Source: Scatophagus argus
Lineage: Eukaryota; Chordata; Actinopteri; Scatophagidae
Direction: 5' to 3'
Length of the DNA: 64,000 nt
Assembly: GCF_020382885.2 (NCBI RefSeq)
Contig: NC_058499.1
Span: 1,153,501-1,217,500 of the forward strand
In this document: one piece after another, positions 2,031-60,798 of the stretch
Position numbering within the stretch: position 1 is the first letter of the stretch
How the letters are laid out: every line of letters begins with the position of its first letter
Program-made: the position numbers and the translations under genes
Notes under the pieces: generated by a model
Told to the model about the DNA's origin: nothing
Database searches by the model: none
Seen by the model: the letters and a program-made list of their open reading frames with translations, nothing else

Positions 2031-4249
2031 TGAACGTACCGTGACAGAGGATGCAGTGACACTCGTGCTGTCGTCGTCCTCACTCTGTAAAACAACATAA
2101 ACAACATGTGAGTAAATGTACACGTTTTGTTTGTACTCTGCCTGTCAGAGTGAATACTGTGACTGCACTGTGTGTCTGACAGCTGCACGCAGTACGTGTG
2201 TTTTCTGTACACGTTCAGGTGTGCTCACATTTTCCTCCACCTGTAATGAATGAAACGCGTGACGCCGTCCAATCTGAGCATCACACACAACATTTTGCTC
2301 TTAAAGCAAACCACTTGATGCCGTCAGGATTTCATTTCCTCGATAATTTCGTGACTCAGTTGTGATGTTTTTCCTCTACCTTTCCTTTCCTTGTTGTTTG
2401 ATATGTCACCGGCCGGTCACCAGATCAGCTGTTTCCTCCTGAGTGTGTGTGCAGGAGCACTCGAGACATGCATTAATAATCATCTTTGAGATAATTGAGC
2501 ACACGACTCTTCTTGTTGTGTAATTGTTTGCAGAGCGACTCATTATATAAGATTCCTGCAGACTGAGAGTGAACCTCCCAGAAGGAGCGATAAAGGATAA
2601 AATCTAACGAATCCGTTAAATCACCAAAAAGACGGCTCATCTCTCAAAGGCTCAGTAAAACACACTTCAGAGAGGACGAGGCCGCTTTCATCTCTCAACC
2701 CGACATCTTTATTTACCGTCTATTGTCAGCCCGGCAGACTGGAGATCCTCTCTCAACTTGTTAATGAGCACCATTCAATTACGTGATTCATTCTTTCACT
2801 TCCTGCACATGAATAAATCTGTTTCATGTTTCCTTTCTGAGTCATTGTCTCTCTGATTCCTCGGTTTGAAGCCCCCCTTCGCTTCTCTTAGATTTTTGTT
2901 TGATTTCTCTCAACAGCAGGAAACTAAAGTGCAGAAATCTGAACATCGGAGGTGAGGAATGTGGGAGCTCAAACTTTCCCTGAAGGAGGTCGATGGACGC
3001 GTGGCCTGCACGCGGGACCGCTGGCAGGAAGCTGCCCTTAACGCCGCTCGCCGTGTGTGAGTGTACGTTAACACGTCTGTGCCGTGTTTCTCCGCGACGC
3101 TGTGTTCAAAGGATGAAAGGTTGTGTTTAGAAAAGAGCCAGGATGTTCAGTGTAAACCTCTGAACTGCAGGGGGCGCTCTGATCCTGACAGGAACCTGCT
3201 GCACCAATCACAGCTGGTGACAGAAGAGTCAGAATAATGTAATGCAGTACTCTGTCCCGTGGGGCAAACCGCCACGTGAATACAAACACTAAGGATCATG
3301 GGTAATGACGGCTAAAACGCTGCTGGACGCAGGCCTGCTTCCTCGCCTCCTCCCAGCACAGCAGGACGCCGACTACAGGAAGTCCTGGTGTTATGATGGA
3401 CGTTTACTGACTGTGAAGCAGAGAGACGAATGTTGGTCTGCTGGTGAGGAGGGAACACGAATCCCAGGAGAGACGAGGAGGAGGAGGCTGCTCTTCATCG
3501 CTCTCATTAGTAAACACACACACACACACACACTCAGGTGTCACACTAAATGATTGTGGCTCACTGCAGAGGTGAATTAAAGGTAAAAAACAACACAGTG
3601 TTGTGAGTGTCTGAAGTGATAACACACGCACAGCACACTTCACTAAAATGGGAACGCCGCTCACATCGGTGAATACGTCGGAATTTAAGGTCAACGTAGC
3701 AGAGTTTTACTTCTTCCAGCGATCGCTTTGGCTTTACCGCGCGTTGATGTTCTGTTCAGAAGAGTCGGCTAACTTTAGTTTACTGCACGGAGTGAAAATG
3801 CAGCTGATGTGAAAAGGTGAAGCTCTGAAATGTTCTGTAAATTCTCCAGCGAGTTTGACAGCTTTAGCCAAACGGCGGCTGCGGCTAACGTTAGCATCGC
3901 CTCCGTCAGCACCGCAGTGACCACATTCAAAGCACACCTTGTTACTGTTGTAGAACACTTTGATCGACATTTCCCGGCGGTCTCCGTGGAAACCAAAGCA
4001 GATATTTGCAGCACTTATGGGTCGGCATGAGCGTCGAGATTTGAACAAAGAACCGAGTCAGATTCACAAACGACCTCAGGTCATCGTGTGGTCATCTGGA
4101 TCTCTCCCACTCAGAGCTCCTCGCTGTGCCCCCCCCCCATCCTCACCCACCACCCCTCAGTCCTGAAGCCTTTCACAGCTCCGGCTGTGCCACAAGAAGG
4201 CAAGAAGATAATAAAATCAGCTCATTCTGTGTGGAGGAGACATGAATGG

Positions 4250-4560
4250 GCTCCTGTTTCATCGCCAAACTCTGCGGAACAAAGTGGCCCTCCGTTAGCA
4301 TAACAAAAGCCTTTCCCAGCCACTTCCACCCCTCCATCTATTCATCCTGTCAAAACACGGCCGCCGCTGGGCTTTTCCTCCTCTTTCTCACCCCCCCTCC
4401 TCCCCCAGAGATCCTCTGACAGCTACAGAGGCGGGAGGAGAACCTCCCACCTCTCATCACCATTTAGCAGCGGCCCTTTTGTAAGCCAATTGCCCATCCT
4501 AATTGGTGGCGTTTACAAGCCGCTACGTCAAAACGGCGGGCAGTGAAATCCTGCAGAGTG
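4250..4560. promoter_or_regulatory. Candidate conserved regulatory block
   Basis: This is unique, non-repetitive sequence with two facing CAATT/AATTG motifs (CCAATTGCCC and CCTAATTGGTGG, near 4476-4507), bordered by pyrimidine-rich DNA. It lacks microsatellite or transposon character and lies in the flank of a developmental homeobox gene, where conserved enhancers are common. The call rests on sequence texture only. Alignment to other fish would decide it. Confidence 0.3.
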
Positions 4561-6369
4561 GGCGATCAGTTAGAAGAGAAGGAGGAGAAAACAGAGGGGT
4601 GAGGGTGAGGGTGAGGGGGGGTCTGCAGAGTCGCAAGGCCGGTCGGAGGAAAGAGAAGACGCACCACTAAAAAGAGAAGAAGAAGAAGAGAATAAAGACG
4701 ACACTGAAAGACACCAACTTAACCTCGGAGCTCGGATGTCTTTTGTTGTTTCTGTCTCAATCACGTTTGTCAACAACGAAACAGAAGATGAGATCAAGAG
4801 AAAATTATGAAGTCCCAGTAATTGTTCATTTCCTTTGGGATTAAAAGAAAAAGAGCTTTTTACTTTATCGGACTAAATGATCTCACAGACTCTTGATCAT
4901 CCAATCAGCGTCGCTGTGCTCCTCGAAGGGAAGACGTTTCTGATGATGAAAAGAAGACATATTGATCCCCGGGGGTTAATTCACTGAATAACTGAATGTT
5001 TCACTATTGAACCTCAGTGTTTTAATTTGCTTTACGCTGTAACGTTGTAGACAACAGTCACCTGACGCTGAGGAAGGCGTGTCCGGACTGCTGGTCAGAG
5101 GAAACGCCGTGAGGTGTGTGGTAAACTGCGTTACCTGGCCGACAGGTGATGAAGACGACCTCTGCTCGTGTTCGCTCTGAACCCTGTGAGAGCTGGTCAG
5201 CCAAACTTGACCATCACATGACAGAAGTGACAGAAATGCTGCTGTGGCAGCTCAGTGTCGTCAGTCTGTCAGTTAATTGTCTGGAATATTAACATAGAAA
5301 ACACCTGGAGCCACAGCTGATTTATTCTTACAACGAGGCAGAAGCCCATGAGGGCAGGACTTCCCCTTTAATTACACTCGTCAAATCAAACAGCAGCCCT
5401 GCAGTCACAACTCGCTGAGTCTGTCTGAAAATTAAATGTTTCTGAACAGCCCAGAGAGACGGACGGAGACGTATTAAAGACTCTGATGAAGTCCGCTTCA
5501 CAGACGCATGACTAAGCTTTATTAGCGAAAAAGACTCCCGACTCCTTAATCCCACCGCGGCTCCACTCTCGTTTTTAATAATTGTGTGATCGTGTTGAAC
5601 TTTGTAGTGGGAGAAAATATTACATCACACACATAACGCGGCCTGTTGGGTCCACGTGTGTGTGTGTGTTGGATCTGAGCGAGGCGGGACAACATGGCGG
5701 ACCCGCCGGTCGACCGCCTGCCTCTGTGGATGTGAAAGGTTTTCAGGTGATGGCAGATCCCACACACTGTGCTTTTCATTTCATTCGTTTGTCTACTCTA
5801 AACTTTCATTGAAGCAAAATTACATTATTTTAATTACATTTTACATTTTATATTTTATATGCGCTCCTTCAAATGAACACTGACTTGTGCTACTTTTGCA
5901 TTAATTAATCAATAAAAACTAATTAATATTGATTTGTGTGTCACTTTGTTTAAATGACTGCTTCTCTTTGGTCTGACTGTTGATTTTATTGTACTGATTT
6001 TAAAAATGCTTTTAATCCCTCTATTTGTTTTAATTGTTGTTGTTTACCTATTTTACCTTTTTTTATTGGTTTTATTATTACATATTAGATGGTTATTACT
6101 CCCGTTGTTGTTCTTCTGATTCTGTTAGCTATCGTCAGCTGATGGGTCGTCTGTAAACACCTGAAATCTGACAGCAAAACTGCACTTTTAAAGGGCGAAC
6201 GCGACGCTCACAACAGCGCGGACAGAACGAAACCGTTCGGATGAGTCGTGCTGGAGGCCTTCCCTTCATGTAAGTAATGAAAAATCTCGCACACATTAAC
6301 ATATTAATTGAGGTTTTCCAACAATCGTGTTTTGCTGATGGATGCATTCAAATCAGGCTTTCGGTCGGA

Positions 6370-19189: not shown

Positions 19190-19208
19190 CTGTCTCTCTC
19201 TCCTTCAG

Positions 19209-19243
<35 letters not shown>

Positions 19244-19378
19244 TTCAGTCTCTCTCTCTCTTTCTCTCTCTCTCTCTCCTTCAGTCTCTCTCTCTCTCTC
19301 CTTCAGTCTCTCTGTCTCTCTGTCTCTCTCTCCTTCAGTCTCTCTCTCTCTCTCTCTCTCTCTCCTTCAGTCTCTCTG

Positions 19379-19416
<38 letters not shown>

Positions 19417-19478
19417 CTTCAGTCTCTCTCTCTCTCTCTCTCCTTCAGTCTCTCTCTCTCTCTCTCTCTCTCCTTCAG

Positions 19479-19513
<35 letters not shown>

Positions 19514-19577
19514 TTCAGTCTCTCTCTCTCCTTCAGTCTCTCTCTCTCTCTCTCCTTCGGTCTCTCTCTCTCTCCTT

Positions 19578-19612
<35 letters not shown>

Positions 19613-19613
19613 T

Positions 19614-19648
<35 letters not shown>

Positions 19649-19704
19649 TCGGTCTCTCTCTCTCTCCTTCAGTCTCTCTCTCTCTCTCTCTCTCTCTCCT
19701 TCAG

Positions 19705-19739
<35 letters not shown>

Positions 19740-19741
19740 TT

Positions 19742-19788
<47 letters not shown>

Positions 19789-19822
19789 TCAGTCTCTCTG
19801 TCTCTCTCTCTCTCTCCTTCAG

Positions 19823-19858
<36 letters not shown>

Positions 19859-20008
19859 CTTCAGTCTCTCTGTCTCTCCTTCAGTCTCTCTCTCTCTCTC
19901 CTTCAGTCTCTCTGTCTCTCCTTCAGTCTCTCTGTCTCTCTCTCAGTCTCTCTCTCCTTCAGTCTCTCTCTCTCTCTCTCTCTCCTTCAGTCTCTCTCTC
20001 TCCTTCAG

Positions 20009-20044
<36 letters not shown>

Positions 20045-20124
20045 CTTCAGTCTCTCTCTCTCTCTCTCTCCTTCAGTCTCTCTGTCTCTCTCTCCTTCAG
20101 TCTCTCTCTCTCTCTCTCCTTCAG

Positions 20125-20156
<32 letters not shown>

Positions 20157-20187
20157 TCCTTCAGTCTCTCTCTCTCTCCCTCTTCAG
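19190..20187 (+). repeat. CT-rich array with regular TTCAG interruptions
   Basis: Nearly 1 kb of almost pure pyrimidine on the plus strand: (CT)n runs interrupted about 31 times by CCTTCAGTCTCT, plus two TTCGG variants. It ends about 250 bp before the irx5 ATG, so it lies in the promoter or 5' leader. Each unit is a textbook 3' splice-site mimic (pyrimidine tract followed by CAG). The 397- and 447-codon open frames across it (Leu-Ser repeats) are repeat artefacts. Confidence 0.95.
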
Positions 20188-20436: not shown

Positions 20437-23400
20437 ATGGCTTACCAGCCTCAGGGTTTCCTCTTCCAGCCGTCCGTGTCGCTGGCTCTGCACTCCTGTC
20501 CGTCCTTCGGCTCCGGGGTCATCTTAGGGCCGAGGACGGAGGAGCTCGGCCGCTCCTCTTCGGGCTCAGCCTTCGCTCCGTACTCGGGATCGGCGACCTC
20601 TCCCGGCTTCAACTCGCACCTCCCGTACGGCGGGGAGCCCCGGGCCGCCGCCACCCTCAACTCCTTCGTGGTGAGTGTCCGCAGCGGAGCGGGCGGGTCC
20701 AGCAGGGGTTTGGGTTTTAGTTCTGGGAGTTTGTGGTGAAACCCAATTGTCACTTTTGGTGTGTAAACGGAAAGTGTGCAAAGCGGGAAAAGACGCTGCG
20801 TTTTATCACACCTGAGTTGGGTTTGAAAGCCACGAAGCTTTGGTCCTTTGTGAGAGGAACTTAAAGTTTCACGAGTTTAAAAGAAACCACAAAATGTTAT
20901 TTTATTTTTACCAAATAAACAAGAATATTTCGATTCTCTTCGGTTTCTGTCTGTGTGAAGAATTTCCCGTTTTGATCTTAAACCGCATTTCAAAATGATT
21001 TTTAAATTTTCTGTCTCTCTTCTGCACTTCTGCTTTTTTTTCTGAAATTGTCAAAATGTGAATCTGATTTTTGTTGTCATTTTTATTTGTCTGTTTTGTT
21101 TAGTTTTTCAGTCTTGCTGTGCTGAAGAGACTTGAATATTGAATCTGAATTTCTTTATTTTCATTTATTTGTATTGAAGCACAATCCAACAGCAGCTGTG
21201 AATTTCATACAAACTGACTAAAACTGAAGTTTTAATGTGAAAGATTAAATGTGATGTAGAGAAATGTGTTAAAGTGTTCTAATCATGTTGTGATTTCAAG
21301 GTGGCCTTCTGCCTGGACTGTTGTTTTCATCCACAGTCCGTGTGCAAATTAAATGTTGTTTGTCTGTTTTAATTAAACTTTTCTTTCACCCTTCAGACCC
21401 GTAAAGATTAGGAATCTCCTTGTCAGAGGCAGGCTGCCAAGAAAACAGCTTCAGCTTAAAGCTGCAGACAGAAAACACAGTGACGCCGTGTGTGCAGAGA
21501 AAACACTGAAAAATGACTGAAAGACAAAACAGAAGGTCTCATCAGAGTGTTTCCGCTCAATAATCATCACATCATGTCCTCTTTCAGAGTCCTGGTTATG
21601 ATCCGTCCTCGGGCATCTCCGGCTCCTTAGATTACCACCCGTTCGGGGCCCTGGGGCCATACCCATACGGAGACCCCACCTACAGGAAGAACGCCACGCG
21701 GGACGCCACGGCCACGCTGAAGGCCTGGCTGAATGAGCACCGGAAGAACCCGTACCCCACCAAGGGGGAAAAGATCATGCTGGCCATCATCACCAAGATG
21801 ACCCTCACTCAGGTGTCCACCTGGTTCGCCAACGCTCGCCGGAGGCTGAAGAAGGAGAACAAGATGACCTGGACCCCCAGAAACAGGAGCGAGGACGAGG
21901 AGGAGGAGGACAACATCGACCTGGAGCGGAATGACGAGGACGAGGAGCCGCTGAAGCCCAACAACGACGAGCCGGAGACGAAGAGCGAAGCCGGTGAGTG
22001 AGAGGAGGAGGAGGAGGAGGAGGAGGAGGAAGGTGCTTTGTTTCAGTCCGTGGTGCCTTTCAGCTGCAACCTTCAGTCCTCTAATCGATTAGTCAAAGAT
22101 TAATCAGCAGCAGGTTTGATTACTGACTGATCGATCGGTCAGTTCAAGTAAAAATGTCAAAGGTCTGAAGAGAATATTTTCAGTTTTTTTATGACCGAAT
22201 CTCTTTGGGTTTCGGATTGTTGGTCGAACAAAACATTTGAAGACGTCATCTTGGAGACTGACCTCAAACATCTCGACTTGCCGTTGCAGACCTAAACGGA
22301 GAAGTTATTCCGCGACAGGCTGCAGCAGATTCAAATCCTAACGGGAACATTTGATTCAGCTGTGGGGGAGAATTCAGGTCCTTTACTAAAGAGAAAGTAT
22401 CAGTACTGCACTAGAAAAACACTCCATTAGTAGGAAAATACCTGCTGTGAAAATGCTACTCAAGAAAAAGTGTGAGTGTTATGAGCAAAATGCACAAAAG
22501 CTAAAAGTATATCATCATTTATAAGCCGTTCAAAGGCTTTAAGGTAAAATATGAAATCTTAAATTAATATGAAATAAAATGTTTACAGTAATACTACTCA
22601 CACTGTACTGCATTTTTGTGTGTCCCGAGTATGTGGAGACAATAAAAAGCAGGTAGTTTCAGAGGAAAGGTGTACAGTTTGCATGATCTGCTGTAATCAC
22701 TGAGTGTTTTGTCATCAGCAGATTCATCAATCGATCACATCAAGAGATTGATTGGATGTTTGATCTGTAAACTGTTAAATGTGAAGTCTTTAAATGTCTC
22801 GATTTGTCTGATCAAAAGACCAACTTCCCCCAAAAAACAGTAAGAATAAATTACACAAAATTATTAATCGATCGTTAATATTTTTTATTGGTTAATTAAT
22901 TTTTGCAGCTGTAGTTCTGTTCAGAGCGTTTTCATTTGCTTTGGTTCATTTTGTGTTTGTTTTCCATCAGCCAGAATTAGTTTGTCTGGTGAATATTTGT
23001 TCATTATTTAAAAAAAATAAACAAAGATGATCAATCAATTTGTCGTGAAAATAATCTGCAAATTAAATGAATATAGTAACAAAAATAATTATTATTTCCA
23101 GCAGCGTGTGTGTGTGTTTATGTCAGCGTGTGTGCTGTCCTTCCTCTCCTGCTGACCTCCTCTTCCTCCTCTTCTCCTCGTCCTCCTCCAGCCGTCCGCC
23201 GCTCGCCGTCCGTTGGAGACTCCTGTGTGCTGATGTTCAGAGACGACAGCGGCAGCAGCAGTGACGCCGATCGAGGGTTCACTGACGCGGACTTTAAAGA
23301 CTCCGGGGACGGGAGGCCGCCCCACATCCCGGGCCACACCTCCACAGGGGCCCCTCCCCAGAACTCACCCCCGGGGACGGTCAGAGTGCTGGAGCCAGAG

Positions 23401-28917: not shown

Positions 28918-31420
28918 TTAAACTGTGTTTCAATGCTGCACTTTCCTGAAAGGCAAACTCAGCAGTGAAAATCAGTTCTGTTTACTTTCTACTCTGTTTT
29001 ACCGACGTCTCCGTCATTTTATTTATTTTATTTTATTTAGGCAGACACAGATTATTTAGGTTTTGTCACTGTGTATAAAACACAACATTTGGTTTGACAG
29101 CAGTTCACTTCACTTACAGCATTTCTATAAACGCATTTAAAAAAACAGGAAATGTGAAAAATTATCATACTTTGCACTCTAATCTGCTTATAACATGTAA
29201 TACATGCCAGTTTAGTATGTAACTGCAACAATGTGACAAAATGTCATTACCTTCAGTGAATAATGTCAGATTATTCTGGCGTCCAAGACGATGTTTTCAA
29301 AAACACCAAATTATTCACTTTACTGTAAACGTTAAATTCTGTAATATTTTGGTATTTTTGCTTGAGATTAGCTGCACATTAATTTTAGATCGATTAAATT
29401 TAAAATCAGGATTGTATGTGTAAAAACTGTGAAATATAAACAGTGAGAGGAGCGCTGAAGGCCTCCGTGAGAGCTGCAGGTGCAGCGTGTGGGACTGAAG
29501 GTGTGAATAAAGGTGGTGCCGAGCCTCCTCCTGCAGGCCGCCGGGGCTTTGGCTGAAGCTGTGTGACAGATGGTGCCATTTGCTAGCAGTCATTCCTCCA
29601 GTGACCCTTACTGTTGAATATCACACAGCAGGAAGCTCCTCCATGTGTTTTACATGGTGGCATCCTGTTAGCGTAGCCGGCGCTAACCCATTGAGGTTCG
29701 AAGTAAACACCCACATGATCTCTGACGCCCCAAACCACCAGCTGACTGCATGTGGAGCAAATGAAGCCACTGGTTTCCTGACAGCCTAAGGTTCTCCATG
29801 ATGTTTGAAGCAGATTTCTCTGAGTCTTTCACTTGTTTCCAAAGCAACATGTCCTCATTCCTGTTGGACAGAACCAGGCTCAGGTGTACTGGACCTTTGT
29901 CGTGCTGTCACGTGGTCAGTGTGGGGAGGTTCGACAACTTGGTCAGGTTTAGGAAGAGATAATTGTTTGGTTGACTTTTGGTTTCATGTGAGACAGGAAC
30001 AGCAGCTGCTTCTCAAAGCCAAGTCAGCGTCCTACGAAGTCGGGTCCTACAGAGGTGAGACGTGAATCCTTCTCAGCATGTGGACAACATGTTTTGTCTC
30101 TCTGAAAGGCTGTTCATATGCTGCTGTGTGTCCTCTGGAACTTAATTTGATGAGTTAAGTGTCCTCTGTGAGAAGACGTCAGCAGGTTTTTAAGTTCAGG
30201 CATCGTGATATAAACTATACATTTAAAATTTGTTCATTTTAGTTGTCGCTCTAGATAAAATGTTACACATAAACATTAAAATAACGCTAAAAGATTCATG
30301 TTGACAGCCTTCTGTTTGTTTGTTGACAACATTTGTTTGGAGTCTCGGGGCCCCGGGTCGCCGTAGCCTGGAGGAAGGGGGCCCCCTGCAGGCCGAGCCT
30401 CCCCACAGCAGCTGGCCCGGCCTCACGCTCCACCTGAGCCAGTCAGAGGCCTGCTGGGACCTCCTGCGGCTCAGATGCAGACATCAGAGCGGCTCAGGAG
30501 CTGAATCTCAGACTGCATCGTTCCCCTGAAGCTTCAGCTGTCGTCTCTGCCGGGAGCGACGCCTCCTGTGGGCCTGCAGGTCGGCCTGGATCAGCGCTGT
30601 CAACCACCTCCGTTTGTTGTCGAGGACCTGGATCCTTAAACCTGGACCCTGCTGCCAGGGCTCTGAGCCAGCTGGAGCTCTGTAGACTCCAAAGAAGCAG
30701 GAGAGACAGGCTGTACCTGTGTTTCCTGTCGGGTTTGCTGTGAAACACTTTGTGTTAGTTTGGTGTCAGTGATTCAGAGTCACTGCAAAAAAACCTCGTT
30801 TCATATTGTTTTACATATCATTTTGATTTTTTAAATTGCAATTAATTAATTATTTCCATGATCAAGTCTACAAAATATAAAAACTGAAACAAATAAATCA
30901 CAACGTCATCACAATTTTTCATCAGATTTCTAATTATGTTTGATCAAAAGTCCAAAACCCAAAGATGTTCAGCTTAAAACAACAGAAGACAAAACAAAAA
31001 ATTCAAAATCGGTAGGAATCAGTGAATTTGACTTTTTTATCCGGTTTATTTTGCTCTCAGGTGTTAATTTCTATGCTGAATCTGTTCTATCAGCTGCTCT
31101 GTTTTTCACTTTGTGGTTTGGTGATGCAGAGCTTTTGCTGTTTGCTTTTTTCATTTTTTAAATCTGTTCATGTACTCAACGTTACATTTGCTTTGTTTTA
31201 TTTCTCGTTGATTTAAATGAATTTTTTCACTGAATGTAAATCAGATTCAGTCCATCATTATCATCACATCAAAATATTTGAAATATTAAACGCCGTTCGG
31301 TGTGTTGAACGCATGAGAGACGGAAGGGAAAATCCATATTTTATCTGCATAACAATGAAAAGCTGGCGGAAGAAGCCACCTGAGAGGCTCAAGTTCAGCA
31401 CCACGAAGGTGACAACGCGG
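28916..31420. other. Intergenic DNA upstream of Harbinger-like gene
   Basis: Mostly AT-rich. The stretch 29800-30060 contains wording typical of a teleost retroelement scrap (GTCAGGTTTAGGAAGAG). A GC-richer block at 30340-30700 contains a minus-strand coding-like segment listed separately. No complete gene is seen. Confidence 0.4.
30508..30700 (-). pseudogene. Coding-like minus-strand segment, possible gene relic
   Basis: On the minus strand 30636-30508 reads as a highly basic, protein-like stretch (VLDNKRRWLTALIQADLQAH, then an Arg/Gln-rich tail) ending in TGA. Just upstream, 30700-30637 is open in another frame and shares the sense of the same protein. The two frames meet at a 7-nt direct repeat (TCCAGGT) separated by 7 nt; a 14-nt duplication there would explain the shift. 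A TTTAAG acceptor at 30635 is the alternative, making it a last exon. I do not recognise the family; the W-x-x-A-L pattern vaguely recalls the end of a PH domain. Confidence 0.25.
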
Positions 31421-31487
31421 GAGTCACGTGGTCGCGCGGCCTCTTACGTCATAAATAGGCGCCGTTGAGGTTAACCGCCAGTTCAAA
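31421..31487 (+). promoter_or_regulatory. Compact promoter of the Harbinger-like gene
   Basis: In 35 bases lie an E-box CACGTG (31425-31430), a CRE-like TTACGTCA (31444-31451) and an ATAAATAG TATA-like box (31451-31458), 30 bases before the ATG. If the TATA-like box is used, the leader would be only a few bases long. Confidence 0.5.
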
Positions 31488-33880
31488 ATGGAGCCGAGCT
31501 CGGAGGATAACTCATCCCGAACAGCTGCGTTACTTTCCTCCGTTGTGAACCTGAGCGCAGCTCCAGCGTTCGGGGACCAGATGTTCGAGCTGTACCGGCT
31601 CCAGGCGGCCCTGCTGAGGCGGAGGAGGGCGCGGGAGATGATGGAGCGGGACCGGCGGCGGCGGCAGTACCTGCGGCGGAGGAGGGCGTTCGTGCTGTCC
31701 TCCTTCGCTGCTATTCTGAGCCTCATCACATCCACCACCAACAGACACATCTGGGTCCGGAACCGAAGTCCCGGGCAGAACCTGTGGTCTTCGGCGGAAT
31801 CGTTCGACGACGAGCAGTGGAAGGCGCAGTTTCGCGTGTGCCGCGCGACGTTCGACTACCTGGTCGAACAGATCGGACCGGCCATCAAACGGCGTCGGAC
31901 GAACTACCGGGTCCCCATCGAGCCGCGCCGCAGACTGGCCATCGCCCTGTGGTGGTTCGCCAGGTCCGGAGAGTACCGGTCCATCGCCACCATGTTCGGG
32001 GTGGGGATCGCTACCGTGTGTGTGATCGTGCGTCAGGTCACCTCGGCCATCCTGGAGCGGCTGTACCAGCGCTGCGTGTCGCTCCCGAGCGGCCAGCGGC
32101 TGGACGACACCATGAGAGCCTTCACGGACCGCTGCTACCCGCAGTGTGCGGGGGCCATAGGGAGGACGCACATCCCCATCGCTCCTCCCAGAGACAACCC
32201 GGATGACTACATCAACAAGAGAGGCTGGCACTCGGTCACCCTGCAGGCTGTGGTCGACCACGACGTCTGGTGAGCGCCGGGCAGCGTGCTGTGAGCCTCC
32301 CACTGACCGACTCGGCTTAACCGGTGTTCTCTATTCGCCACAGCTTCACTGACATCTACGCCGGCTGGCCTGGAAGCACCAGCAGCGCCGCCGTGCTGTC
32401 CAGCTCAGACCTGTACCTGAAGGCAGAGGACCGGCCGGACGGTTACCTGTTTCCCAGAGAGGTGATCTGCAGGGCCTTAACGTCCCTCCTCTGGGGCTGC
32501 CGGATGGCGACACCTTCCTAAAGTCCATGTACACCGTCTGTGTAGTACTGCTGCGTTGTCCATTAGAAGCCATTAGTTGTTTGGTCCATAAAATATCTGA
32601 AAAAATCGAGAAAAATGTCGATCACTATTTCCCAAAGCCCAAACAGACGTCCTCAAATGTCTCATTTTGTCCACAACCCAAAAACCTCTGTTCACTGTCA
32701 TAACAGAAGAAAGAACCCAGAAAATATTCACATTTGAGAAGGTGACAGAGAATCTGAACATTTAAAAACCCAATAATAGTTAATGTGTTAACTAACTTTG
32801 TAGTTGCCAGTGAACGCACTAACTGGTGCAGCTCCAAAGTGTCCCAGTCTACACATGAAAACTGGTTTGTCTTTTCGTACGTCTGTCCCCGATGTGGACC
32901 ATGTAGGATGAGGTCCAGTGTTTTCACGTGTCCTGGGGGACAGGACACTTTGGGCTCTGGGAAACTGCGGTGAGAAACTTTTCACAGTTTTGACATTATA
33001 TAGACTAAACATGTAAATGTGGAAGTAATCCACAGATTAATTAATGATGAAATGTTAGTGGGAGCCTCACTGAGCATTCGGTGCTGTTTGCAAGAGGCTT
33101 TCTGCAGGTCCTGAAGTCTTTAAAAGCATCAACTTCCTTTAAAAAGTTTTAAATCTTATCTCCTGACTGCTGTAACGTTCTTTTGGAAAGGTTTCTGTAG
33201 TGACTGTGGCTGTCAGGAGGCGTTCAACACCTCTAAACTAAAGGATGTTATGAAAGAAAATGTGATGTGAAATGATTGTGGTCCGTCTTGTCCCTGCTGG
33301 TTTCCATCATGCTGTGGCTGCTGTGATGCAGAAGCTGCTATGGAAAAGGCCAGAAAACCCGTTAAAGACGAGATGAGATGTCAAAGTGTTTTTGTATTCG
33401 CGTCACGTGTTGACACTGAAGCGTCTCTTTCAGAAATCAGTTGTGTTTGACGGAGTGGAAATCCCAGTGCACCTCATCGGCGACGCGTCGTTTCCTCTGA
33501 AGCCGTGGCTGATGAAAGGATACGGCCAGGAGCACCAGCTGACCCCTGAGCAGCGCCGCTTCACCTACACCCTCACCTCCGCCCGCTCCGTGGTGGACAC
33601 GGCTTTCACACGCCTGAAAGGACGCTGGAGGTGCCTGCTGAAGAAGAGCGACATCGACATCTCCATGATGCCCAGAGTCGTGGCCGCGTGCTGCGTTCTG
33701 CACAACATCTGCGAGAACCGCGGAGACACTTTCCTTCCTGAGTGGAACGTCGATGTGGCTCCGGGTTCAGGTTTTCTGAGGCAGCCCGACACCGAGCCGT
33801 ACGAAGGAGACACGTACTGCACTGCAGAGGTCATCAGGGACACCATGACCTACAACCTGTTGACGATACTGCAGCACTGA
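31488..33880 (+). CDS. Harbinger/PIF nuclease-like protein, probably domesticated
   Basis: Three exons (31488-32269, 32344-32461, 33434-33880) with GT-AG borders and matching phases encode an intact 448 aa protein. The N-terminus is basic and Arg-rich (about residues 45-65). A DDE_Tnp_4 (HARBI1/ALP1-like) nuclease fold follows. The first catalytic motif, normally GAIDGTH, reads GAIGRTH. The second acidic residue is kept (FTDIYAGWPGS), but the usual HD after PGS is SA. The third motif, normally VVExAFxRLK, reads VVDTAFTRLK. Thus two of three catalytic acids are altered, while fold-defining segments such as KRGWHSVTLQ and RRFTYTLTSAR are well kept. Introns, an intact frame and its own promoter-like upstream DNA argue for a host gene, not a live transposon; terminal inverted repeats were not found. 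A Myb-like partner gene is not present in the window. Family assignment is strong; function unknown. Confidence 0.88.
32462..33433 (+). other. Intron 2 of the Harbinger-like gene
   Basis: 0.97-kb intron, GTGATC donor and CTTTCAG acceptor; no coding sequence or clear repeat recognised. Confidence 0.6.
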
Positions 33881-35876
33881 CGCCTGAGGACCTGCTGAGG
33901 TGCGGCCGCCGCTCAAATCAACACGAATCGCTTTGCTGCATGTTGTTCAGCAGCAGACAGGAAGGACGATGAGGAGCTCTTAGGCTCCGTTTTAAAACTG
34001 TTTGGGTTTACAGTCAAACCGAGTCTGAAGTTCGCTTTGGTTCACTAAAGATGCTGAGCATAAAAAAATGCTTAAAAGGAGCAGTTCAGCAGTCATTGTC
34101 TCCTCACAATCAGGTGGTCTCCTCATCCGCGAAACGTTTACGGACCGAAGGAGTGACGAGTTCATTTCCACACCGTTTCTGCGTCACACAGTTCGTCCTC
34201 TGCAGCAGCAACACGTCTGGCTTCGGGCTCCTTCGCCGTCCAGCGGGCGAGAGGAGGTCGCCAGGCAGGTGCTGCCAGCTGAAGCTGATGTGACATTTAA
34301 TGATCACAGGTGTGTGAGGGGGTTGACACAAGCTGCTGAACGACGTAAACACACTGTTGGAAATCATCTCAAGGATCGTCCAACAGTGTTTTCACAAATG
34401 AGGTCTCTGCACGAGACTTCCAGACTTCTTCCTTCAAAAGTTTTGTATTTATTTATTATATTATATAATATATTATACGGTTTGTCTTCTGTGTGTGTGG
34501 CGGGGAAATACAACTCGAGTTTTGTTACGCAGTCTTGTGTGATTAATTAAATTAATCTTGAGTCCTGTATGTGGTTTTTTTTGTTTTGTTTTTGCTCAAG
34601 TCCAACTTGAAGGAGCAGTTGGTGTCTTTAAAAGACACAATGAATCTGTTCTGAGGGAGACCCGCTCAAGGCAGCACATTTCACACAGAAATAATTCAAA
34701 TATCAACAGCAGAGAGAACAGACTAAATAAAGCTCAAATAAAGTAGATGCATTTCTCAGCTGCACGGACTCAGATGGAGGCTGTTGTTGAGGTTTCTCTG
34801 TAAGATGATATTTACATCACATGATATCAGACCTGCTGGAGGCTTTCAGGTTTACAGCATGAAGTAAAACAACAGTGCATGTGCAGTATGTACTGTCATT
34901 TACTGTGTACAGACACATCCAATACAAAGTACACACCTTACGTACTTTTACATCAGATATTGCTGGAAAGCGTTCCTGTTTGTGGATGCCTTGTATGCAA
35001 TAATGGATCAATAATAATCTGCTAATGTGATTTATTCTCTCCAAAGTCCCACAAGTCCTAAAACAAATCATATACCTGTGCACACTATTTTAACTTTTAT
35101 ACTCGATACTTCAGGTACACTTGATGATAAAGTAAGTGACTGCTGGTAAATACATGTTAACTAAAGGTACATTTATTAATTTAGTGCTGCTACTTCCACT
35201 GAAGTCTTAAATAGAATAATTAATGTAGGATGCGTTTGTAGTTAAGGGAGCATTTTCAGAGTTCAACCATGGATGACGTCACTTGAGTAAAACATCACTC
35301 GTTAGTCTTAACTGAACTGCCAGCGTCACTCACAGCTAACAGTTTTGTGCCCGTGAGGCGGAGATTTCGACGGAAAACATGACAATTTAAAAGAGAAGAA
35401 TAACGTTAACAAGGCTGTTAACGGCTAGGAAACACTGTTCAATACGTGTGGAGACTTTTCCAGAGGCCGTGCAAACTTTTCTTGAGAGGAAACAAGTCAA
35501 AACAAAAATAACCGGAAGTAGTAGTATTCGGCCTGACGGCAGACCCACCCATTCATGCTAACCTACGCACGTTTAGTGGGCTGGGGGAAGATACGCCGTT
35601 TTTGTTATTCTCTGCGTAAAATACGCGCCTAAGTGACGCTCCACTCGTTTTTCGTGGCTCCCCGTACGTCCGTAACGGCTACGCGTAGACGTACCTGTCA
35701 AAGGACATTTAAATGGGCACACTGTACCGAGCCGTATACCGTGCAGCACGCTAATAACGCTGTTACGATCACATTTGGACAAACAGCTGCGTGAGAACCG
35801 CCTGTTCTTCTGGTCGGTGGTGTTGTTTTTCTTTTAACCTGCTTTTAACCGCTAAGTTCGTTCAGAAAACCAAAAA
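33881..35876. other. Intergenic DNA and rbl2 promoter region
   Basis: The first part is the 3' end of the Harbinger-like gene. From about 34930 to 35220 the sequence carries fragments of a common teleost repeat (many TACTT/AAGTA words). The last 300-400 bases before 35877 are CpG-richer and include the rbl2 promoter; no TATA box is seen. Confidence 0.45.
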
Positions 35877-59495: not shown

Positions 59496-60798
59496 GCGTG
59501 CGTGTGCGTGTGTGTGTAGACAAGCCCTCCTGTGGGTCCAGGTTAACCACTAAGGAGCTGCAGCAGAACTGGAGGGAGGTGAAGCAGAGGGACCGACCCG
59601 TCAGGCTGCTCTTTGAGATCTCATCCACTCGGATTGTTGAACAGCATCTGACTAAATATGTGGTGAGATCCTGAAACACACACCTGACACACACCAGAGC
59701 ACCGCCGGAACGTAACAAAGTACTTAAGTACTTTTACTCAACTAGTACTTTGTTGTCTTGCTGTTTTCTACTTTGGCTCTGACGCCAGATGTAGCCTGCG
59801 CAGGGTTAGTGACAGCAGCTAGCTTAGCTTAGCATACAGACTATAAACAGGGAAACAGTCAGCTTATCTTAGCATACAGACTATAAACAGGGGAAACAGT
59901 CAGCTTAGCTTAGCATACAGACTATAAACAGGGGAAACAGCTAGCTTAGCTTAGCACACAGACTGTAAACAGAAGAAACAGCTAGCTTAGCTTAGCACAC
60001 AGACTGTAAACAGAAGAAACAGCTAGCCTGGCTCTGTCCACAGGTAGCCAAATGTCTTTTCCAGCAACTCTGAAAGTCACTGACAAACGTAGATGTGAAG
60101 TTGTGTTGTTTCCTGTTTGTTTGCAGGTGTACGAGATCGTGGTGATGCGTTCTGGCAGCTTCGATTCTCGCCGTGTGTCTGTGGAGCGCCGATACAGCGA
60201 CTTTTCCCGCTTTCACCACACATTGCTGGAGGAGTTCAGTGAGGAGCTGGAGGAGGTGGTTCTCCCCCGAAAACTCCTGACTGGGAACTTCAGCCCTGAA
60301 ATCATCTCGGAGCGCCGTCTCTCCCTGCAGGACTATCTGGCCAAACTGTACGCGATCCGCTGCATCCGGCAGTCACCTCATTTCTCCAGATTCTTCACCG
60401 AGCAGGAGCAGAAGCGAGCGCACACCTTGCTGCGGGCGGGACAGTTTCGGCCGGCTGTGGAGCTTCTGCAGACCATCTTAGATATTGAGGAGAAGCTTTT
60501 ACCGTGGCAGAAGCCCACCCTGGTTGTACCGACCCTCTGCGCCCTGGCGGTCTGTTACCGGGATCTGGATGAACCAGAGCAGGCATTTGCGGCTGCCCAG
60601 AGAGCTCTGCCTCCGGTGAGACGCTACGGACTGAAAAACTACAGATCAGCTCTGTTGGACCTGCTCATGAATTTGGGCTATCAGCTGGGACGTCCTGTGG
60701 CTCAGTTACAGGAGGAGCTGACTGTCCTGAGAGACGCCGAGAGGGGGGAGGTGTCCTCCCACTCCCTGAAGGAGATAGTGGTCCACGAGTTCACCTGA
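58989..60798 (+). CDS. snx20: Sorting nexin 20
   Basis: Three coding exons (58989-59052, 59520-59662, 60127-60798), consistent phases, 292 aa (human SNX20 316). The protein begins MAEAQKDTKDPTEPDG. Exon 2 carries the conserved LTTKELQQNW segment that opens the PX region. Exon 3 completes the PX domain with the phosphoinositide-binding motif RRYSDF (about residues 90-95) and PRKLLTGNF (about 116-124), then a helical, TPR-like PXB domain to the C-terminus. SNX20 binds PI3P-containing endosomes and, in mammals, traffics the adhesion ligand PSGL-1. SNX21 is the alternative, but the neighbouring 16q12-type genes favour SNX20. The exon 1 donor (GTTCAC) is weak but is the only one that preserves phase. 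Confidence 0.9.
59053..59519 (+). other. snx20: snx20 intron 1
   Basis: Ends in a GT/GTGC microsatellite that abuts the acceptor TAG at 59517-59519. A TTC-rich pyrimidine tract lies at 59097-59130 but is followed by no exon in phase. Confidence 0.7.
59425..59516. repeat. snx20: (GT)n(GTGC)n microsatellite at a splice acceptor
   Basis: Alternating purine-pyrimidine run of about 90 bases, with potential to form left-handed DNA, ending directly at the 3' splice site of snx20 exon 2 in place of a normal pyrimidine tract. Confidence 0.93.
59815..60035 (+). repeat. snx20: 41-nt minisatellite in snx20 intron 2
   Basis: Five copies, 40-41 nt apart, of a unit containing AGCTTAGC, ACAGACTRTAAACAG and GAAACAG. 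The spacing is read from AGCAYACAGACT at 59831, 59871, 59912, 59953 and 59994. It ends about 90 bases before exon 3. Confidence 0.9.

Follow-up and report, generated by a model that had tools for sequence, protein, structure and literature searches.

The 64,000-nt stretch of DNA analyzed here (the window) contains, at 31,488 to 33,880, a gene that descends from a PIF/Harbinger transposon nuclease and is now probably a host gene. Judged from its residues, the encoded protein is very probably dead as a nuclease. With moderate confidence we favor the fuller reading that this single-copy gene has lost cutting and has kept the nuclease fold as a scaffold for a Myb/SANT-type partner. Nuclease-dead Harbinger derivatives are already known from plants, with roles in chromatin; what is new is the gene in the window (the window gene) and that it is not alone in its genome. 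Two or more dead genes in one fish genome would be natural replicates for asking why a transposase fold is kept after cutting is lost. Among vertebrate nuclease-derived genes, HARBI1 alone is named in the passages we consulted ('at least one', PMC3424704; also PMC9710019, PMC3257199). Titles and abstract openings, with few subscription journals among them, yielded no dead vertebrate PIF/Harbinger nuclease gene.

Spliced together, the exons at 31488-32269, 32344-32461 and 33434-33880 form a frame of 1347 nt, which encodes 448 aa and ends in a stop. It has zero internal stops, and both introns have GT..AG borders. This agrees with the earlier note on this DNA, which had described an intact three-exon gene of 448 aa free of stops and frameshifts. 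The gene and its candidate signals are laid out as follows.

31300..31487, + strand: candidate promoter; CpG o/e 1.16 versus 0.61 for the whole window, continuing into CpG-rich exon 1
31488..32269, + strand: exon 1; codons 1-260 and two bases of codon 261; Arg-rich N-terminal stretch; GAIGRTH motif (Asp replaced by Gly225)
32270..32343, + strand: intron 1; 74 bp, phase 2
32344..32461, + strand: exon 2; remainder of codon 261 through codon 300; CFTDIYAGWPGSTSSAAVL motif, HD replaced by SS
32462..33433, + strand: intron 2; 972 bp, phase 0
33434..33880, + strand: exon 3; codons 301-448 and stop; LIGDASFPL (Asp317 kept), VVDTAFTRLKGRWRCL (Glu replaced by Asp355)
34726..34742, + strand: candidate poly(A) signals; AATAAA twice, at 34726 and 34737

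Residues 227-391 of the protein match DDE_Tnp_4 (Pfam PF13359, E 6.8e-31) with 107.5 bits, above the curated cut-off of 24.8, which places the protein in the PIF/Harbinger nuclease superfamily and bears out its previous description as a Harbinger-type nuclease. A second, weaker Pfam match is to Plant_tran (25.6 bits, cut-off 22). From this family membership, we infer that the protein has the RNase-H-type nuclease fold. The N-terminal part is long, with 14 K/R in the 25 residues from residue 42, and the computed pI is 9.2. Comparison with solved structures by sequence returned six ribosomal protein S7 matches, at E 0.18 or worse, which were rejected as not credible. As expected, a pattern search of viral contigs and of prokaryote genomes, which reaches close relatives only, found none for this gene, and plasmids had none either.

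Motif positions were set by alignment to relatives from the same genome. The site of the first catalytic Asp (Asp 1) falls on Gly225 within GAIGRTH (residues 222-228), as had been read from the departure from GAIDGTH. The second (Asp 2) is present as Asp317 in LIGDASFP, and the third acidic site, Glu in the family, is Asp355 in VVDTAF, a D for E that had likewise been noticed. The triad is therefore Gly225, Asp317 and Asp355, and the intact DDE of an active PIF/Harbinger transposase is absent. In PGSTSSA, the HD that usually follows PGS corresponds to Ser274-Ser275; the earlier note had given SA, a one-residue shift that the alignment corrects. Asp264 ('FTD') is probably not catalytic, as in most of the relatives in the alignment this site is occupied by Asn or some other residue.

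The HARBI1 of the same genome reads VLDCVQV, FLGDRRYPL and IVDRTF at these sites, so its third acidic residue is likewise Asp. The Glu-to-Asp change was therefore rejected as proof of a dead nuclease and is, on its own, weak evidence for lost cutting, so that the case for the window gene is carried by the loss of Asp 1. Accordingly, the previous claim of lost catalytic residues stands for Asp 1, with Asp317 kept, and is weakened for the third site. DDE enzymes use Asp 1 as a fixed ligand for the metal. This, together with the replacement of all three positions in the nearest intact relative (on contig C15, described below), argues against a still active nuclease in which a nearby acidic residue takes the place of Asp 1 and an Asp that of the third Glu. 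The shared third-site Asp and the acidic residues close behind the motif (PRDNPDDY) would suit such an enzyme, which we nevertheless consider very unlikely. What these three acidic residues do in DDE enzymes is treated in PMC8230255.

Among the relatives showing a residue at the respective site, Asp 1 is kept in 14/17 alignment rows, Asp 2 in 14/15 and Glu 3 in 13/15 (manual count, leaving out the window gene and the C15 gene, with many rows being copies of one family). Counted by clusters, Asp 1 is kept in three of the six that show the site (L046/L063, the L041 family and L047) and lost in the other three: relic L045 has Asn, relic L003 has Ser, and the gene-like locus L016 has Ala. Loss of Asp 1 is thus not confined to intact genes. 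Across the columns conserved in at least 60% of clusters, the window gene keeps 52/83 and the C15 gene 49/83. Catalytic-type columns are kept in 1/5 cases versus 51/79 other columns for the window gene (p 0.067) and in 0/5 versus 49/79 for the C15 gene (p 0.011), with column 225, which lies below the 60% consensus cut, put among the catalytic-type columns by hand. An excess of loss at these columns in the window gene is only suggestive. That 52 of the 83 columns are kept can also be taken as a sign of a former host gene that is losing constraint and becoming a pseudogene, but stops, frameshifts and broken splice sites are all absent and GC at third codon positions (GC3) is 0.77-0.85 across all three exons, which makes this course unlikely.

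The genome searched comprises 570.7 Mb in 48 contigs. The whole protein as query gave 15 matches, three being its own exons and the other 12 being 28-47% identical; the window gene is single copy. Like plant ALP1, it thus combines a single copy with lost catalytic residues. Its nearest decayed relatives, L047 (C5), L049 (C17) and L050 (C12), are short sequences interrupted by stops and shifts of frame. Relative alignments and trees rest on the first profile-search pass (39 rows), as later passes drifted into wrong frames and were dropped. In trees from short alignments, the window gene pairs with relic L049 (95/93 and 90/88). This pairing, the descent of the gene from a transposon in a genome with at least 115 PF13359 matches (150 of 229 candidates scored) and the loss of Asp 1 in two out of five relic clusters in which the site is seen would all fit a decaying transposon copy that by chance is still readable. 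Against this stand the 448 intact codons and the distance to the closest other copy, at 47% identity. In simulated neutral decay, the frame stayed free of stops in 9.5% of runs at 0.05 substitutions/site and in 1.4% at 0.1, and the fraction was lower still once indels were assumed.

Composition also speaks against decay. GC3 is of the coding type, with exon 3 at 0.56/0.43/0.77 over the three codon positions and GC of 0.43 on its intron side and 0.46 downstream, and CpG o/e of the exons is 1.01, 0.67 and 0.89 versus 0.06-0.43 in eight relic segments, all of them depleted. Corresponding values are 0.31-0.65 for the C15 exons and 0.45 for the HARBI1 span, so that high CpG is not a mark of every such host gene. 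The high CpG and GC of the window gene may belong to its place: intron 1 has a GC of 0.64, about equal to exon 1 (0.65), and GC3 of the two host exons measured in the window is 0.52 (SALL-like) and 0.84 (irx).

Introns and flanks bear on the same question. Ancestral transposons are described as intronless (PMC3257199). In L047, a relic of the same subfamily, the sequence runs on across the intron-1 site with no intron, and the intron-2 site looks contiguous in relic L050 (weak alignment, by eye); L041-type copies look interrupted at two places, an impression from match coordinates. The introns of the window gene were likely gained. The 3 kb on either side contain 29 inverted-repeat pairs (15 nt, at most two mismatches), and in no pair do the 3-mer flanks match; simple shuffles gave 9.8 pairs, and 0.1 with matching flanks. 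No terminal inverted repeats or target-site duplications (TIR/TSD) of an active PIF/Harbinger transposon were recognised in these flanks, a search that eroded or longer-range ends would escape; old TIRs may have eroded. Single copy, coding-like composition, the lack of a recognised TIR/TSD and introns at sites without introns in relics together favor a selected host gene, and a decaying copy appears quite unlikely. Intactness, composition, introns and the contrast with decayed relatives thus suggest that the gene has been kept by selection. The earlier proposal of a domesticated host gene minus cutting is strengthened by these features, by the loss of Asp 1 and by the C15 relative, the support coming from inside one genome.

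The nearest intact relative, L043 (C15:9060219-9062761), encodes 435 aa in four exons and is intact in our model, with a weak donor site at exon 1. It is 35% identical to the window protein over 397 aa and has the Arg-rich N-terminal part in common. All three of its catalytic positions are changed (Asp to Thr, Asp to Glu, Glu to Asp) and its HD is EP; it has tpgs1 (TPGS1_C) as its neighbor upstream and a gna11-like frame (by eye) downstream. The replacements at the catalytic sites thus differ between the two genes, and by eye no intron positions are shared. In the trees, the C15 gene falls beside L047 or L050 in one and beside L017 (weakly) in the other, and a joint origin with the window gene is not rejected (p 0.092 and 0.133), which leaves unsettled whether there was one domestication or two.

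Two further loci look dead as nucleases by eye. L016 (C21:9.6 Mb; 797-2603, +) is a gene-like PF13359 locus whose first frame scores below the Pfam cut-off and whose motifs read, by eye, VLAPAHF, AGRGYHL and NVMRTTL. L017 (C16:19.86 Mb; 708-2610, +) is a PF13359 frame with catalytic residues replaced by eye; its neighbor, a 221-aa frame at 3907-4569 (-), matches Myb_DNA-bind_4 (PF13837, E 8.8e-12). The nuclease and Myb/SANT frames lie tail to tail about 1.3 kb apart and are possibly a co-domesticated pair, or else an old element.

The window gene is not the HARBI1 orthologue, an identity that was rejected because the HARBI1 of this genome is a separate locus (L015, C24:10.90 Mb), which a human HARBI1 query sequence matches at 72-85% along residues 1-121. 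Over residues 108-424, the window protein shares 28% identity with that human sequence. Both are multi-exon host genes with a domain of the same superfamily, but the HARBI1 of this genome keeps Asp 1 and Asp 2 whereas the window gene is without Asp 1. In vertebrates, HARBI1 is reported to interact with NAIF1 and to depend on it for nuclear localization, and in insects, including Drosophila, PIF nucleases were repeatedly domesticated along with Myb-like proteins (PMC9710019). The insect genes are likewise domesticated PIF nucleases, of separate origin from the window gene.

Closer parallels come from plants. Arabidopsis ALP1 is reported to have DGA for DDE (PMC4671723). HDP1 and ALP1 are described as having lost the triad, with the nuclease-Myb interaction kept in all cases examined and running through the nuclease N-terminus in several of them (PMC7282668). 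Like the window gene, they are nuclease-derived host proteins minus catalytic residues; unlike it, they lost other residues, the window gene reading G-D-D, and we infer that it arose independently of them. Links of ALP1 to PRC2 and of HDP1 to IDM1 are reported for the plant proteins (PMC4671723, PMC7282668); for the window gene, a role in DNA binding or chromatin silencing may be suggested by analogy.

On the same analogy, the window protein would most likely be a non-cutting scaffold for a Myb/SANT partner. The RNase-H-type fold would be retained without cutting, and the N-terminal half would bind a Myb/SANT-type protein. This partner, presumably encoded elsewhere in the genome, would supply DNA targeting, and the pair would act on chromatin or transcription with no DNA cleavage. 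Ten of the 86 frames of at least 60 aa between 24 and 37 kb were tested for a Myb/SANT domain, and none of the ten had one. A wider and more doubtful proposal is that fish genomes carry a few PIF/Harbinger nucleases that were domesticated independently, no longer cut (on C7, C15 and perhaps C16 and C21) and serve Myb/SANT partners as scaffolds, much as the ALP/HDP system does in plants. On this view, the two frames on C16 could be a pair that was domesticated together and has stayed together.

The window gene had been placed between irx5 and rbl2, and its surroundings fit. Pfam identifies the exon at 21564-21998 as an IRX-type homeobox and finds domains of the RB family in frames between 37145 and 45523; beyond these domains, we take the neighbors to be irx5 and rbl2. 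The RB-family gene, on the same strand, starts about 2 kb downstream of the window gene (start set by eye). Among the matches found, C7 carries no second copy of the window's irx exon; the closest match elsewhere, at 92%, is the central one of three irx-like exons on C1. A protein search of the genome found no relative of the window gene beside this C1 cluster, so the gene either arose later than that duplication or has been lost from the C1 side. Upstream of the irx homeobox exon, a TC-type dinucleotide repeat extends over about 1 kb (window 19193-20183), and a 41-bp unit repeated 5.2 times with 93% match (window 59816-60027) adjoins a PX-domain frame.
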